Assembly (NCBI RefSeq): GCF_902506165.1
Contig: NZ_LR733817.1
Location: 1-64,000, forward strand
Reading direction: 5' to 3'
DNA from: Bosea sp. 29B
GTDB lineage: Bacteria; Pseudomonadota; Alphaproteobacteria; Rhizobiales; Beijerinckiaceae
Length of the DNA stretch: 64,000 nt
In this document: in pieces, positions 26,120 through 54,046 of the stretch
How positions within the stretch are numbered: the stretch's first letter is position 1
How the letters are laid out: the number at the start of each line of letters is the position of its first letter
Notes under the pieces: generated by a model
The model's database searches: none
Told to the model about the DNA's origin: nothing
What the model saw: only the letters and a program-made list of their open reading frames with translations
Translations under genes and position numbers: made by a program

Positions 26120-26195
26120 GGGCCGGTAGCTCAATGGTTAGAGCTCGCTGCTCATAACAGCGCCGGTGCCGGTTCGAGTCCGGCCCGGCCCACCA
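26120..26195 (+). tRNA. tRNA with CAT anticodon (Met, possibly Ile2)
   Basis: Full cloverleaf: acceptor GGGCCGG (26120-26126) pairs with CCGGCCC (26185-26191), D-stem GCTC/GAGC, anticodon stem CGCTG/CAGCG around loop CTCATAA (anticodon CAT at 26153-26155), T-arm GCCGG-TTCGAGT-CCGGC, discriminator A and encoded CCA (26193-26195). The G1-C72 pair and lack of three G-C pairs in the anticodon stem exclude initiator tRNA. Elongator Met is most likely; a lysidine-modified Ile2 cannot be excluded by sequence alone. Confidence 0.95.
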
Positions 26196-47719: not shown

Positions 47720-48136
47720 ATGCCACACCGCTTGCGACGATGGGGCCTGATCGCCGCGGCCCTGACCGCGGCCGCCCTCTTCACCATCCCGACCTCGGCA
47801 ACCGAACGAGCGACCATGATCGAGCAATTGCGCATCTACGAGATCTTCGAGAGCAACAAGGAGGCCTTTCACGCCCGCTTCCGCGACCACGCCGCCCGCA
47901 TCATGAAGACCTATGGCTTCGACATCGCGGCGATGTGGGAGGCCAGGACCAAGGACCGTACCGAATTCATCTACGTCCTGCGCTGGCCCGACGAGGCGAC
48001 CATGCGCCAGAGCTGGGCCCGCTTCATGCAGGACGCAGAGTGGTCTGCGATCAAGGACCGCACCTCCGCCGAGCACGGCCGCCTGGTCGGCGGGATCGAG
48101 GAGCGGGTGATGCAGCGCACGAGCTATTCGCCTTGA
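47720..48136 (+). CDS. NIPSNAP-family protein with signal peptide
   Basis: 138 residues. N-terminal hydrophobic segment (LIAAALTAAALFTIPTSATERA) resembling a signal peptide, then one NIPSNAP dimeric alpha/beta-barrel domain from IEQLRIYEIFESNKEAFHARFRDHAARIMKTYGFDIAAMWE. A second in-frame ATG at about 47816 would give a form without signal. It is a clear paralogue of the gene at 50589-50915 (shared LRI.EIFE.NK.AFHARFRDHA.RIM). NIPSNAP proteins have no established bacterial biochemistry. Confidence 0.85.
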   Translation: MPHRLRRWGLIAAALTAAALFTIPTSATERATMIEQLRIYEIFESNKEAFHARFRDHAARIMKTYGFDIAAMWEARTKDRTEFIYVLRWPDEATMRQSWARFMQDAEWSAIKDRTSAEHGRLVGGIEERVMQRTSYSP

Positions 48137-49353: not shown

Positions 49354-50574
49354 ATGACCGCTCACGAAGGAAACCCCGCCACCCAGGGCTGGCAAGAGGG
49401 CTGGGTCGAGCCGCGCGCGACTGCCGTGCTGGTGCTGGCCGACGGCACGGTGCTCGAAGGCTTCGGCCTCGGCGCGACCGCGCAGGCTCCCGGCGAGGTC
49501 TGCTTCAACACGGCGATGACCGGCTATCAGGAAATCCTGACCGACCCGTCCTATGCCGGGCAGATCATCACCTTCACCTTCCCGCATATCGGCAATGTCG
49601 GCGTCAACGAAGAGGACACCGAGACGGTCAATGCCGCCGCCTCCTCCGGCGTGCGCGGCATCGTGCTGCATGCCGAGGTGACGCAGCCCTCGAACTGGCG
49701 CTCGGCGAAGCATCTCGACGCCTGGCTCAAGGCCCGCAACATCGTCGGCATCTGCGGCGTCGATACCCGCGCCCTGACCGCGCTGATCCGCGAGAACGGC
49801 ATGCCCAACGCCGTCATCGCCCATGATCCGGCCGGCAATTTCGACATCGAGGCCCTGAAGAAGGAGGCCGCGGCCCTGCCCGACATGGCCGGGCTCGACC
49901 TCGTACCGCTCGTCGCCGCGACCCAGCGCTATGACTGGGAGGAGACGCCCTGGCAGTGGCCGCGCGGCTACGGCAAGCGCGAGAGCGCGGCGCACCGCGT
50001 TGTCGCGATCGACTACGGCGTCAAGCGCAACATCCTGCGCCTGCTGGCCAAGGCCGGCTGCGAGGTCGAGGTCGTGCCCTCGACAGCCTCGGCCAAGGAT
50101 ATCCTCGCCCTCAATCCCGATGGCGTCTTCCTGTCGAACGGCCCGGGCGACCCGGCCGCGACCGGCGAATACGCCGTGCCGGTGATCAGGGAACTGCTCG
50201 ACCGCAAGATCCCGACCTTCGGCATCTGCCTCGGCCACCAGATGATGGCGCTGGCCATCGGTGGCCAGACCATGAAGATGAAGCAGGGCCATCACGGCGC
50301 CAATCATCCGGTCCAGGACAAGACCACCGGCAAGGTCGAGATCGTTTCGATGAACCACGGCTTCGCCGTCGACCCGGCGACGCTGCCGGCCAACGCGACC
50401 GAGACCCATGTTTCGCTCTTCGACGGCTCGAACTGCGGCATTGCCCTGAACGACCGGCCGGCCTTCAGTGTCCAGCACCATCCGGAGGCTTCGCCGGGGC
50501 CGCAGGACAGCCACTACCTCTTCACTCGCTTCGTCGAGCTGATGGAGGCGGAGAAGGCGAAGAAGGCCGCCTGA
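49354..50574 (+). CDS. carA: Carbamoyl-phosphate synthase small chain CarA
   Basis: 406 residues. N-terminal CPSase_sm_chain domain (ATAVLVLADGTVLEGFGLGA, TDPSYAGQIITFTFPHIGNVG) and C-terminal class I glutamine amidotransferase with nucleophile Cys in TFGICLGHQMMALA and catalytic His-x-Glu in FSVQHHPEASPG. It supplies ammonia to CarB for arginine and pyrimidine synthesis. carB is not adjacent. The next gene starts 14 bases downstream. Confidence 0.97.
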   Translation: MTAHEGNPATQGWQEGWVEPRATAVLVLADGTVLEGFGLGATAQAPGEVCFNTAMTGYQEILTDPSYAGQIITFTFPHIGNVGVNEEDTETVNAAASSGVRGIVLHAEVTQPSNWRSAKHLDAWLKARNIVGICGVDTRALTALIRENGMPNAVIAHDPAGNFDIEALKKEAAALPDMAGLDLVPLVAATQRYDWEETPWQWPRGYGKRESAAHRVVAIDYGVKRNILRLLAKAGCEVEVVPSTASAKDILALNPDGVFLSNGPGDPAATGEYAVPVIRELLDRKIPTFGICLGHQMMALAIGGQTMKMKQGHHGANHPVQDKTTGKVEIVSMNHGFAVDPATLPANATETHVSLFDGSNCGIALNDRPAFSVQHHPEASPGPQDSHYLFTRFVELMEAEKAKKAA

Positions 50575-50588
50575 TCACGGAGGGTGCC

Positions 50589-50915
50589 ATGATCCACCAG
50601 TTGCGCATCAATGAGATCTTCGAGCGCAACAAGGCGGCATTCCACGCCCGCTTCCGTGATCATGCCAGCCGGATCATGGCTCGCCACGGCTTCCGCATCC
50701 TGTCGATGTGGGAGACGCGCAGCGCTGATCGTACCGAGTTCGCCTATCTCCTCGCCTGGCCCGACCTCGAGACCAAGGCGGCGCGCTGGGCGAGCTTCAT
50801 GGCCGACGCCGAATGGATCGAGATCAGGCGCATCAGCGTCATCGAGCACGGCGACCTCGTCGGCGCGATCGAGGACCGCGTGCTGCTGCCGACCGACTAT
50901 TCCCCGCCGCTGTAG
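50589..50915 (+). CDS. NIPSNAP-family protein, cytosolic paralogue
   Basis: 108 residues, one NIPSNAP domain starting at IHQLRINEIFERNKAAFHARFRDHASRIM. About half of the aligned residues are identical by eye to the gene at 47720-48136, but this copy has no signal peptide. CGGAGGG precedes the ATG and it sits 14 bases after carA, so co-transcription is likely. Role unknown. Confidence 0.88.
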   Translation: MIHQLRINEIFERNKAAFHARFRDHASRIMARHGFRILSMWETRSADRTEFAYLLAWPDLETKAARWASFMADAEWIEIRRISVIEHGDLVGAIEDRVLLPTDYSPPL

Positions 50916-50928
50916 TTGGCCGCTGTGA

Positions 50929-50957
50929 TTGACAGGGCGACGCGCCCGCGCTTTATG
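50929..50957 (+). promoter_or_regulatory. Sigma-70-type promoter of the tyrosine-leader transcript
   Basis: TTGACA (50929-50934), 17-base spacer, TTTATG (50952-50957). The -35 is perfect and the spacing ideal; the -10 is a weaker match. Seven bases downstream is the leader ATG at 50964, so the RNA could start at its own start codon, as reported for leaderless rhizobial trpL. Confidence 0.65.
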
Positions 50958-50963
50958 CGCGCC

Positions 50964-51014
50964 ATGACCTTTGCCTGCCTGCTCGCCCGCAACTATTACG
51001 CGCCGTCCTCATAG
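50964..51014 (+). CDS. Putative Tyr-Tyr leader peptide of the prephenate-dehydrogenase gene
   Basis: A 16-codon frame MTFACLLARNYYAPSS ending in TAG at 51012-51014. Two consecutive Tyr codons (TAT TAC, 50994-50999) occur near its end, 90 bases before the tyrA-like start. No ribosome-binding site precedes it, consistent with a leaderless start immediately after the predicted promoter. The tandem regulatory amino acid, position and following pairing segments are those expected of a ribosome-mediated attenuator, read here as tyrosine control. Not experimentally supported. Confidence 0.6.
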   Translation: MTFACLLARNYYAPSS

Positions 51015-51058
51015 AAGGCGGTCGCACTCCCATGCTCAACCGCCGCGCTGGCGGTTGA
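51001..51058 (+). promoter_or_regulatory. Candidate attenuator pairing segments
   Basis: Segment 1 CGCC (51001-51004) can pair with segment 2 GGCG (51017-51020); segment 2 GGCGGT (51017-51022) can instead pair with segment 3 ACCGCC (51039-51044); segment 3 pairs with segment 4 in a perfect 9-bp stem TCAACCGCC (51036-51044) / GGCGGTTGA (51050-51058). A ribosome stalled on the Tyr codons would cover segment 1. The 3-4 hairpin is followed by ATTCAGG rather than a U-run, which weakens the terminator reading. A tiny frame MLNRRAGG also occupies the hairpin. Confidence 0.55.
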
Positions 51059-51104
51059 ATTCAGGCAGTCACCCGGCATCGCGGCCCTCCCCAAGGACAA
51101 CGCG

Positions 51105-51944
51105 ATGCTTATCCCGAACACCACCAATCCTTCCGTCGGCCTGATGGGCTTTGGCGCCTTCGGCCGCCTGGTCGCCCGTCACCTCAAGCCGCATTGCCGC
51201 CTGCTCGCCTTCGATCCGGCGCTGCCGGCCGATGCAGCCGCCGGCGGCATCATCGCCGCCGATCCGGCCGAGATCGCCGCCTGCGACATCATCATCCTCG
51301 CCGTACCCGTCGCCGCCCTCTCCGAGGCGATCGCGACCTTGCGCCCGCATCTGCGCGCCGGCGCGATCGTCGTCGATGTCGGCTCGGTCAAGATCGGCCC
51401 GGCCATGACCATGCTTGCCGAGCTGCCCGAGGACGTCGAGATCGTCGGCACGCATCCGCTCTTCGGGCCGCAGAGCGGGCGCGACGGCATTGCCGGCCTC
51501 AAGATCGCGATCTGCCCGATCCGAGGCCGCAGTGCCTGGCGCATCGCCGCCTTCCTGCGCCAAGTGCTGCGCCTCAAGGTCATCATGACCACGCCGGAAG
51601 CTCACGATCGCGAAGCGGCAATGGTCCAGGGCCTGACCCATCTGATCGCCAAGATCCTGGTCCGGATGGAGCCGCTGCCGCGCCGCATGACCACGGCGAG
51701 CTTCGACCTGCTGATGCGCGCGACCGAAATGGTGCGCCATGACAGCCCGGCGGTCTTCCTTGCCATCGAGCAGGCCAACCCGCATGCGCGGCCGGTGCGC
51801 GATCGCTTCTTCGCGCTCGCCGAGGAGATGCGGGCGCATCTGGACGGGGCCCGGCAATCTCTCGCGAGGACAGAAGAACCATCGGCGGCTCGGCCGTCGG
51901 CACCTGTCACGGAACTGGCTGGCGGGCTGCCCTATCCGTCGTAG
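51105..51944 (+). CDS. Prephenate/arogenate dehydrogenase family protein
   Basis: 279 residues. NAD-binding VGLMGFGAFGRLVARHLK; VVDVGSVKIGPAMTMLAELP; the family hallmark GTHPLFGPQSG with catalytic His; and AHDREAAMVQGLTHLIAKIL. It oxidises prephenate or arogenate for tyrosine synthesis. The C-terminal ACT domain found in some relatives is absent. AAGGACAACGCG precedes the ATG. The Tyr leader upstream supports the assignment. Convergent with, and overlapping by 13 bases, the propeller-PLC gene. Confidence 0.92.
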   Translation: MLIPNTTNPSVGLMGFGAFGRLVARHLKPHCRLLAFDPALPADAAAGGIIAADPAEIAACDIIILAVPVAALSEAIATLRPHLRAGAIVVDVGSVKIGPAMTMLAELPEDVEIVGTHPLFGPQSGRDGIAGLKIAICPIRGRSAWRIAAFLRQVLRLKVIMTTPEAHDREAAMVQGLTHLIAKILVRMEPLPRRMTTASFDLLMRATEMVRHDSPAVFLAIEQANPHARPVRDRFFALAEEMRAHLDGARQSLARTEEPSAARPSAPVTELAGGLPYPS

Positions 51945-53980
51945 CAGTCTCGACCGTTCCCGCGCATGAAGTAGGCGCTTGGAAAGTCCCGGTAGTTGGA
52001 CGTCGCGGCGTTGACCATCTGGGTGACGGTGAGAGCGGGATAGGCGTTGGTCGGATAGGTCACGTTGATGTAATCGAACAGTGACCAGCCGAACGATGTA
52101 GGCCGGTTCGCGAGCACGCCGAGATATTCCAGCAGCCTGCCCTGGATGTTGAGCTTGCCGACGCCCAGATAGGTCGAGCTCCCGAAATTGATCAGCATTT
52201 CGCCGCGCTGGCGCGGCTGCTTCACCGCGTCGATGAAGAGCTGGAACTTCGTGCTCCACGGATCGATCAGCGGCAAGCCCTTGTAGCGATCCTGAATGTA
52301 GACACGAAACTGGCGCTTGTCGGTTGGCTCCAGCCAAAACCCGTCCCGATTATCGCCGAAGTTCATCGGCACGCCGAGGGAAAGGTCCTCATTGATGCGA
52401 TTGATCAGGTAGATCTTCCCCATCGCCTCGCTGAGATGAGGGATATCGGACTTGTTGACGATCACAGGATAGGCCTGCAGCACTGCACGCAGCGCGTCAT
52501 AGACGGCAGCTCCGTATCGACCCGGATCGACGCTGTTCCAGTCGTCGATCTTCAACGACATCACCAGAAACTCCCAGGTCCGCGAGGACAGGAAAGCACG
52601 GCACTCGTCCAGCAGTGACACGAAGGACTGATACTCGTTGATCGGGGTGCCGCCGCTGTGTGGCCCGTGGCAGGTCACGAATGTGAAGGTCGAGTCCGAT
52701 TTCTGCACCTTCAGCCTGACATCGAGAACGCGAACACCGGCCTCGAGCTGCTGCGTGATCGACATGTTGTGGCAGGCATAGGCCGTCGTCGGCAGCCAGG
52801 TGTTGATCGCCGCGCTGTCATGCGTCCCCATCAGGCTGATGTCGCAGATCAAGGGGTCGAGGATCGGCGAAGGCTGATCGCCGCCGCTTCTGGCGGGGAC
52901 GGCCGCCACTGCCCCGGGGCCGACCTTGGCCACCATCCCACCCTTGACCGCGCCTCCTCCTGCTGGGGCGGGCATCGGCTTGGTGTGCATGTCCATGGTC
53001 TGCTGGACCCGGTAGCCGGTCGTCACGACCGGATCCGGGAACGGCATCAGACTCAGACCCGGGCCGAAGCTGGATTCGGGATTGATCATGCCGGACCGGC
53101 TCGCGATCGACACGTCGCCCGACCAGCTGCTGCCGTCGAACCAGGATATGAAGATCGCAGGGTTGCCGCGCCCGCGATAGGCCAGCCAGAGCTTGTTGTC
53201 GAAGACCAGAAGATTGGGAGCATTATCGGTGCGGGCATCAAGATGCCCGGCCTGGTCGGAAAGCTTCTGGTCGCCCGACCAGGTGCTCCCGTCGAGCCAG
53301 GAGATGAAGAGACCGTCCTTCTGGGCGCCCTTGTAGATCAGGACGAGCCTGTCGTTGAAGACAGCCGCGGCAGGCCCTCGATCCGACCAGGGGTCGATCC
53401 CGCCCGGCAATTCGCTGATCGGTTTGTCGCCGTCCCAATCGCCGCCGTCGAACCAGGCTGCGTAGAGTTTCACGACACCGGCGCCCTTGTAGATCAGGTA
53501 GAGCTTATTGTTGAAGACAACGGCCGTGGGAGGCTGGTCCGACTTCACCGTGCTGCCGGACTTCGTGCCGATCGGGATATCGCCATGCCACTGCCAGCCG
53601 TCGAACCAGGAGCCGTAGATGGTCGTGCTTCCGGCTCCGACATAGAACATGTACAGAAGGTCATTGTAGACGACCAGAGTCGGCGCCTGGTCTGTCTTAG
53701 GGTCGACCTCTCTTGAAAGATCACTGATTTTCTGGTCGCTACCCCAGGTCACCCCGTCAAAGAACGACATGAATATATTGCTACCGAGATGGCCGTTATA
53801 AACCATCAAAATCCGATTATTATACAGGCAAGCAGCCGGCGCGCTTTTCGTCTTGGGAGTTATGCCACCGCGCTGGCTTGATATGCTCGTGTCGCCCGCC
53901 CACGTCGTCCCATCATAGATGCTCGTGAATATCTCCGTGCTCTCGCCCTTGCCCCTATAAAACAGCCCCAGCTTCGGCAT
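51932..53980 (-). CDS. Six-repeat beta-propeller fused to a PI-PLC X domain
   Basis: 682 residues in two halves. Residues about 4-314 are six copies of a 52-residue unit with the pattern LYLIYKGAG...LYAAWFDG...W.GD..IS.....P.TD..P...VFNN, which should fold as a six-bladed propeller of the sialidase/fucolectin style. A Gly/Ala/Pro linker (about 335-370) leads to a phosphatidylinositol phospholipase C X-like domain with catalytic His387 in LMGTHDSAAINTW and His438/His441 in TCHGPHSGG, plus GVRVLDVRLK. No signal peptide is apparent. Base composition is lower in GC than its neighbours. Predicted to bind a glycan or surface ligand and cleave a phosphoinositide-like or GPI-like bond; this is inference. 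Confidence 0.85.
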   Translation of the reverse strand: MPKLGLFYRGKGESTEIFTSIYDGTTWAGDTSISSQRGGITPKTKSAPAACLYNNRILMVYNGHLGSNIFMSFFDGVTWGSDQKISDLSREVDPKTDQAPTLVVYNDLLYMFYVGAGSTTIYGSWFDGWQWHGDIPIGTKSGSTVKSDQPPTAVVFNNKLYLIYKGAGVVKLYAAWFDGGDWDGDKPISELPGGIDPWSDRGPAAAVFNDRLVLIYKGAQKDGLFISWLDGSTWSGDQKLSDQAGHLDARTDNAPNLLVFDNKLWLAYRGRGNPAIFISWFDGSSWSGDVSIASRSGMINPESSFGPGLSLMPFPDPVVTTGYRVQQTMDMHTKPMPAPAGGGAVKGGMVAKVGPGAVAAVPARSGGDQPSPILDPLICDISLMGTHDSAAINTWLPTTAYACHNMSITQQLEAGVRVLDVRLKVQKSDSTFTFVTCHGPHSGGTPINEYQSFVSLLDECRAFLSSRTWEFLVMSLKIDDWNSVDPGRYGAAVYDALRAVLQAYPVIVNKSDIPHLSEAMGKIYLINRINEDLSLGVPMNFGDNRDGFWLEPTDKRQFRVYIQDRYKGLPLIDPWSTKFQLFIDAVKQPRQRGEMLINFGSSTYLGVGKLNIQGRLLEYLGVLANRPTSFGWSLFDYINVTYPTNAYPALTVTQMVNAATSNYRDFPSAYFMRGNGRDCYDG

Positions 53981-54046
53981 GGTGAGTCTCCCGAATCTCA
54001 ACCTCTGCGAGAGAGATGAGACCGAGCGCAACCGGCGTCAATTCGA

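Follow-up and report, generated by a model that had tools for sequence, protein, structure and literature searches.

What controls the tyrA-like gene that, in Bosea sp. 29B, follows a short reading frame with two adjacent tyrosine codons? The locus lies within the window analysed here, a stretch of 64,000 nucleotides (contig NZ_LR733817.1, positions 1 to 64,000), and an earlier note, made from the letters of this stretch, had read it as trp-type attenuation transferred to tyrosine. We conclude that the leader is probably a tyrosine-sensing, ribosome-mediated attenuator of a prephenate dehydrogenase gene, with translation initiation as its output in Bosea; a shortage of tyrosine would then turn the gene on.

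The identity of the downstream gene, previously given as prephenate dehydrogenase, holds at the level of homology. Its product matches Pfam PDH_N (E 2.5e-17), with PDH_C also among the matches and no ACT domain found by Pfam, and a profile of 19 orthologues has solved prephenate dehydrogenases as its top matches (5t9f, E 9.2e-39). The leader therefore stands before its cognate tyrosine-biosynthetic gene, as the attenuator class requires. Counting against the proposal, the same genome (6.3 Mb) also has a canonical prephenate/arogenate dehydrogenase, tyrC (PRK07502, at C1:3381068); a scan of the 300 nt upstream of this second gene revealed no tandem-Tyr sequence.

The surroundings of the locus deserve a brief description. 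Two NIPSNAP-type genes (47720-48136 and 50589-50915), 62% identical over 106 residues and the second with a Pfam NIPSNAP match, flank carA; in loci L003 and L004 the apparent end of carA lies directly 5' of the leader, and the second NIPSNAP copy was not found in the locus. Convergent with tyrA, on the minus strand, is an ORF of 699 amino acids (51932-54031), with no Pfam match and a weak CV39L lectin match (NCBIfam E 2e-7, under the cut-off); the MGTHDSAA stretch in its second half presumably recalls PI-PLC-like enzymes.

The elements to which the argument refers, with positions in the window, are as follows.

50929-50934, plus strand: -35 element TTGACA, by direct reading; the search for the 108 leaders compared below was anchored on TTGAC.
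50952-50957, plus strand: -10-like element TTTATG, by direct reading; relatives have TTTAAG and similar hexamers.
50964-51014, plus strand: predicted leaderless uORF MTFACLLARNYYAPSS, 16 codons, with ATG at 50964 and stop codon TAG at 51012-51014.
50965-50977, plus strand: segment 0, the 5' end of the uORF (TGAC and TGCCTG), predicted by minimum-energy folding and the swap test to pair with 51062-51071 (CAGGCAGTCA) when the leader is ribosome-free.
50994-50999, plus strand: tandem Tyr codons TAT TAC, from direct reading and the counts in 108 leaders.
51003-51009, plus strand: segment 1, CCGTCCT, partner of segment 2, paired in 90.5% of cells in Bosea.
51016-51022, plus strand: segment 2, AGGCGGT, partner of 1 or 3; swap test not significant.
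51024-51035, plus strand: small stem 2a within the 2:3 hairpin (51024-51026 with 51033-51035), its 3 pairs possible in 21/21 aligned leaders.
51036-51044, plus strand: segment 3, TCAACCGCC, partner of 2 or 4, from the alignment.
51050-51058, plus strand: segment 4, GGCGGTTGA, partner of 3 or, together with 51042-51049, of segment 5.
51042-51085, plus strand: alternative 4:5 helix, in which 51042-51058 faces 51069-51085 with 14 paired positions and 3 mismatched ones.
51075-51109, plus strand: 5:6 hairpin (51075-51083, GGCATCGCG, with 51101-51109, CGCGATGCT), which closes the tyrA start codon.
51093-51097, plus strand: putative tyrA Shine-Dalgarno (SD) sequence AAGGA, from position and sequence.
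51105-51944, plus strand: tyrA-like gene, prephenate dehydrogenase homologue of 279 amino acids, from Pfam and profile search.

Direct reading bore out the 5' architecture claimed earlier, namely TTGACA, a 17-base spacer, TTTATG and the ATG of a 16-codon Tyr-Tyr frame, as well as GGCGGT (51017-51022), ACCGCC (51039-51044) and the 9-bp stem between segments 3 and 4. There is a further in-frame ATG at 50955, but it falls within the -10 hexamer; the tyrA-like start at 51105 is 90 nt past the uORF stop. A promoter and terminator scan of 50500-51200 returned no plus-strand site, and it misses TTTATG because its sigma-70 rule requires the second hexamer to have A as its second base and T as its sixth. 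Among the 70 leaders with 35-nt spacing, T occupies -12 in 87% and A occupies -9 in 67%.

From these elements the following mechanism can be proposed. Transcription would start on the AUG of the leaderless 16-codon uORF. First, with Tyr-tRNA plentiful (OFF), the ribosome would reach the stop codon and cover segment 2, and 3:4 would form; segment 5, left free, would pair with segment 6, that is, the tyrA start codon and its surrounding bases. Second, with Tyr-tRNA scarce (ON), the ribosome would halt on the Tyr codons, masking segment 1 and not segment 2; 2:3 would then form, the free segment 4 would take segment 5, segment 6 would open and tyrA would be translated. Third, with no ribosome on the leader, segment 0 would pair downstream and the RNA would remain OFF. 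Judging by the usual ribosome footprint, the geometry is suitable: a ribosome with a Tyr codon in its A site would end just before segment 2, and one at the stop codon would cover it. We infer that the ribosome stalls, that 2:3 forms, that the helices refold in this order and that the system responds to tyrosine; for other parts of the proposal the comparison of relatives provides support.

The leader and the gene are present together in 20 of the 24 other Bosea genomes. Alignment of the resulting 21 leaders, our own included, shows no variation in TATTACGC, in the cores of segments 3 and 4 or in most of the 3' segment. The distance from the start of TTGAC to the uORF ATG is 35 nt in 19 leaders and 36 nt in 2, with the second in-frame ATG used for L001, L003, L004 and L006. 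Orthologues from other genera, down to about 44% identity, show the same arrangement. Of 80 named orthologues, 67 are preceded by a Tyr uORF according to a script, including those of Chelatococcus, Mesorhizobium, Brucella-named species, Methylobacterium, Roseomonas, Thalassospira and Jhaorihella; in three more (L128, L148, L152) a leader is visible by eye, with its ATG somewhat farther away, and the remaining 10 comprise four records from Brevundimonas, two from Rhodoblastus, two Caulobacter-related ones and two others. Matches of the CM search at L082, L083 and L085-L090 were dropped, as the gene does not follow and there is no such uORF.

For the comparisons below we used 108 distinct leaders, obtained from 163 candidate loci by removing 31 identical copies and 24 loci without a leader by script; this is a lower count, since by eye at least L075, L076, L077, L084, L128, L148, L152, L173 and L219 among the 24 carry one. 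Gene starts were assigned by rule, as the first ATG or GTG at least 80 nt past the uORF. Leaders with CATCGCGG are termed Bosea-type (n=42, one Thalassospira, L138, included). Within the search window of 34-38 nt, the ATG or GTG lies 35 nt after TTGAC in 70 leaders, 36 nt in 19, and 34, 37 or 38 nt in 19; a few loci have the uORF ATG at about 39 nt. This conserved promoter-to-ATG spacing supports the predicted leaderless start.

We then considered the Tyr codons, whose persistence in relatives had been named as a check on the original proposal. Of the 108 leaders, 104 have TAT as their first Tyr codon and 4 have TAC; it is followed by a second Tyr codon in 102 (TAC in 86, TAT in 16). In 105 leaders the first Tyr codon stands six codons ahead of the stop, although the stretch of peptide preceding it differs in length. 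Outside these codons, Tyr accounts for 3 of 1546 uORF residues. The presence of Tyr is itself given by construction, as the script required at least one after residue 7, but nothing in the script imposed the tandem, the spacing or the synonymous swaps. The Tyr-Tyr codons are thus kept with TAT/TAC exchanges and at a fixed distance from the stop, a pattern that fits translation rather than a binding pocket. Some leaders retain a single Tyr, as YS, YR, YH or YP; in L171, L141, L152 and L137, from the Methylobacterium group and Acetobacteraceae, the second Tyr codon has been lost and the rest kept, which may reflect either regulation by a single codon or decay.

Two alternatives bear on this pattern. 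First, the RNA might sense tyrosine or tRNA directly, as a metabolite-binding or T-box-like element, the uORF being incidental; T-boxes as a class bind tRNA and are not known to carry a uORF. That the 21 Bosea leaders have long invariant stretches would suit such an element, but synonymous exchange and the fixed distance to the stop would not, and Rfam returned no match in the leader at the gathering score (its only match in the window being a tRNA at 26120-26192) and, at E <= 5, three weak matches near it, all under their gathering scores and none relevant. We regard direct sensing as most improbable. Second, the nascent peptide could arrest the ribosome at YYAP, or the queuosine state of tRNA-Tyr could be read instead of its charging. 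The frequency of Tyr-x-x-Pro and the bias towards TAT first and TAC next are in keeping with this idea, which is nevertheless very unlikely, given that the peptide ahead of Tyr-Tyr differs between genera and that TAC and TAT swap at both codons.

The evidence for the helices is uneven. The fold of the whole leader is more stable than that of shuffled sequences (z = -3.84), and the 3:4 hairpin, with 98.4% of its cells paired in the 21 Bosea leaders, is the stable one that had been foreseen. As to 4:5, RNAalifold picked it unprompted on the Bosea alignment; all its 14 pairs hold in 21/21 leaders; and variation falls on 3/3 mismatched positions versus 1/14 paired ones (Fisher p 0.006). Across genera, exchanging partners between leaders weakens this helix, namely -23.8 kcal/mol for cognate and -20.0 kcal/mol for swapped segments (n=25, segments that do not overlap), a difference reached in 0/20000 permutations, although here and in the other swap tests the permutations ignore relatedness and the probabilities are rough. 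The 5:6 hairpin (z -3.37) behaves likewise, with -17.2 versus -12.9 kcal/mol (n=28, 0/20000), and again 0/20000 when one Bosea is kept (25 leaders). Its outer counted pair varies among G-C, G-U and A-U and holds in 20/21 leaders (failing in L021), which ties the first base of tyrA codon 2 to segment 5; its inner UCC/GGA pairs bases of the tyrA SD. Failures concern the innermost counted pair in 11/21 and one pair in L017.

Segment 0 gives a different picture in the two sets of leaders. In other genera it pairs with the linker after segment 2 (-17.5 versus -14.7, 46 leaders, 0/20000), and in Bosea-type leaders with the linker between segments 4 and 5, before segment 5 (-11.3 versus -9.9, n=23, 0/20000), where the linker between segments 2 and 3, meant as a control, also gave p 0.0015. 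Sequence comparison supports the leaderless spacing, the Tyr codons, their fixed distance to the stop and helices 5:6 and 4:5, and, less firmly, the role of segment 0.

The 1:2 and 2:3 pairings, on which the switch would turn, can be formed in many leaders, but without covariation beyond chance across genera: the swap tests gave p 0.56 and p 0.106, respectively, and p 0.56 and p 0.79 once terminator-type leaders were added. Within the 21 Bosea leaders, 1:2, 3:4 and 5:6 taken together have 7 doubly changed cells versus 2.8, and a covariation score, that exceed all 500 shuffles, whereas the counts of pairs with double changes (2 versus 2.0) and of additional pair types (7 versus 8.0) are not above shuffles; two of five measures in all exceed every shuffle. 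Thus, of the conservation anticipated in relatives, that of the Tyr codons was found, and compensatory change in 1:2 and 2:3 was not significant across genera; the 2:3 alternative is possible in sequence, with no significant covariation. The pairing of CGCC with GGCG put forward earlier is one register of helix 1:2, but folding and alignment prefer CCGTC(CT) (51003-51009) with (A)GGCGG (51016-51021).

If initiation is the output, the tyrA start should be found in structure, and in the predicted folds it is. The start codon is closed (probability unpaired < 0.15) in 41/42 Bosea-type leaders, the sole exception being the Thalassospira L138, in 15/55 other sequestration-type leaders and in 5/21 tyrS controls, these controls being the tyrS loci, 21 of 30, for which a start as well as an SD was obtained. 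At the same threshold, closure of the SD core is seen in 35/55 of the other sequestration-type leaders versus 1/21 controls, and either start or SD in 41/42 Bosea-type, 43/55 other, 4/11 terminator-type and 6/21 control loci. The partner of segment 5 therefore moves, across genera, from the AUG to the SD. For all 108 leaders, start-codon accessibility is 0.25 versus 0.38 in shuffles, and that of the whole SD-to-start window hardly departs from them (0.34 versus 0.39). The 4:5 helix is an alternative pairing that, from its sequence, could free this start.

The energies of the competing states are compatible with a switch set by segment 1: summed helix energies in the window are -33.0 for OFF and -26.5 for ON, and -26.4 and -26.5, respectively, when segment 1 is unavailable. 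Equilibrium folding of the 21 Bosea leaders in three ribosome states left the start codon closed, with OFF favoured, in all of them. In transcripts ending before segment 6 with the ribosome stalled at Tyr (L041, L156 and L223 skipped), 2:3 reaches 3 expected pairs in 4/42 Bosea-type and 21/52 other leaders; once the ribosome is at the stop, no leader attains this. For 4:5, the mark of 5 pairs is passed or equalled in 6/42 and 25/52 when stalled and in 11/42 and 23/52 at the stop, so this helix by itself does not distinguish the stalled state. The E. coli trp leader (NC_000913.3), treated in the same way, kept 6.7-6.9 expected 3:4 pairs in every state. As this proven attenuator also stays in 3:4, the equilibrium test is blind to such switches and cannot decide; a switch in Bosea would need kinetic trapping.

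Termination is the obvious competitor of initiation as the output, and the lack of a U-tract after the last hairpin had been recognized from the start as the weak point of the proposal. That lack is real: the eight bases after the 3:4 stem of the window, ATTCAGGC, contain 2 T, and an intrinsic terminator at this hairpin was rejected for want of a U-tract. It is also explained if the output here is probably translation. Of the original trp-type reading, then, the Tyr-Tyr uORF, the 3:4 hairpin and the cognate gene stand, while transcription termination as the output in this genome is not supported, the pairings running on to 5:6.

A terminator at 3:4 that works without a good U-tract has, all the same, some arguments on its side, as leaders of the same gene in a sister clade combine a similar uORF with a GC-rich hairpin and a T-run (11 leaders of more distant orthologues, for example GCCGCCGCATGGCGGC-GTTTTCATTT). 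Moreover, at least 4 T follow the stem within eight bases in 16/55 other sequestration-type leaders and in 3/42 Bosea-type ones, L138 and L171 being the clearest cases, and the border between the two leader types is not sharp. Yet 39 of the 42 Bosea-type leaders have at most 3 T there (4 in L013 and L118, 6 in L138), and termination at 3:4 leaves the conserved segments 5 and 6 unexplained, which makes it an unlikely reading for Bosea. Comparably doubtful is an OFF state that permits Rho-dependent termination in 51069-51092; the C-richness of this stretch invites the idea, by inference, but it gives no account of why segment 5 pairs with the start codon and codon 2 in Bosea and with the SD in other genera.

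With control of translation initiation as the preferred output in Bosea, we placed the two leader types on a protein tree with 75 members, 64 of the sequestration and 11 of the terminator type, in which every fifth of the 42 Bosea-type sequences was kept. The types lie on either side of a single branch (support 100/99), which implies one change of output versus a shuffled mean of 10.5, on a tree whose bootstrap is not settled and some of whose branches are long; being unrooted, it gives no direction for the exchange. Bosea groups with Roseomonas, near Thalassospira, with weak support (84/48 and 90/88), and this grouping, which does not follow order, hints that leader and gene were transferred jointly.

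The leader does not generally accompany tyrS: 30 tyrS loci from 61 genomes of the order had no Tyr-Tyr uORF after a TTGAC-like box. In one genome of genus g149 (L079, 1501-1663), a leaderless uORF, MITSRATFFNYYTPSP, and a U-run terminator recognized by eye do precede tyrS, an arrangement that favours the Tyr-sensing reading as such and again speaks for termination at 3:4 as considered above. In Bosea itself, a TTGAC-like box precedes the ATG of tyrS (L175, own genome, C1:5474944) by 35 nt, and the tyrS mRNA may be leaderless. On balance, and with some reserve, we favour the view that one leaderless Tyr sensor serves two outputs in sister clades, either a U-tract terminator or a chain of six helix-forming segments through which the place where the ribosome has stalled is relayed over about 100 nt to the next start codon, and that sensor and gene appear to move between alphaproteobacterial orders as one cassette.

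If this is correct, a tyrosine attenuator acts on translation initiation in one clade and on termination in its sister, providing a natural series for studying how expression platforms are exchanged under a kept sensor, with a prediction that a single reporter could test. Since the amino acid attenuators in the literature compared here are mostly terminators, it would also suggest that terminator-based screens overlook such leaders. Our literature search, which lay mostly outside subscription journals, found no tyrosine leader-peptide attenuator, which does not prove absence; within the accessible portions of the literature, the phrase tyrosine attenuation matched Enterococcus tyrS only.

Among known systems, the E. 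coli trpL leader has a leader peptide with tandem cognate codons near its stop and segments that pair as 1:2, 2:3 and 3:4. The Bosea leader resembles it in its late tandem cognate codons, in its candidate counterparts of these segments and in keeping 3:4 in every state of the equilibrium test, and differs in responding, as proposed, to tyrosine, in its predicted leaderless uORF, in lacking the U-tract terminator and in having two further segments that reach the start codon. Mycobacteria have leaderless poly-cysteine uORF attenuators that sense the amino acid and affect operon expression; unlike the Bosea tyrosine leader, these involve cysteine and belong to Actinobacteria.

The closest cases, as far as the accessible parts of the cited sources go, come from other alphaproteobacteria and from Corynebacterium. 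First, trpL/rnTrpL of Sinorhizobium meliloti is a leaderless trp attenuator whose terminator releases an sRNA (PMC7298713, PMC10117765); the Bosea uORF is likewise, by prediction, at the 5' end of the RNA, but with tyrosine in place of tryptophan and translation proposed in place of transcription termination. Second, the uORFC-8-2 motif before cysS in Rhodobacterales also has tandem cognate codons late in a short uORF, but it concerns cysteine and ends in a run of U, that is, a terminator (PMC8632094), which the Bosea leader lacks. Third, the aroR leader (Phe-Tyr-Phe) before aroF of Corynebacterium glutamicum shares a Tyr codon in a leader peptide ahead of an aromatic-pathway operon; in contrast to the tyrosine reading of the Bosea leader, Phe limitation raises its transcription and Tyr availability does not, according to the accessible part of a review (PMC11802643). 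Finally, and with the same restriction to the accessible text, ermC-type translational attenuation and the T-boxes of actinobacterial ileS that hide the SD in a hairpin share with the Bosea leader, as proposed, an output at translation initiation (PMC2965389, PMC1262725), although ermC, unlike the proposed tyrosine sensor, has no amino acid specificity.
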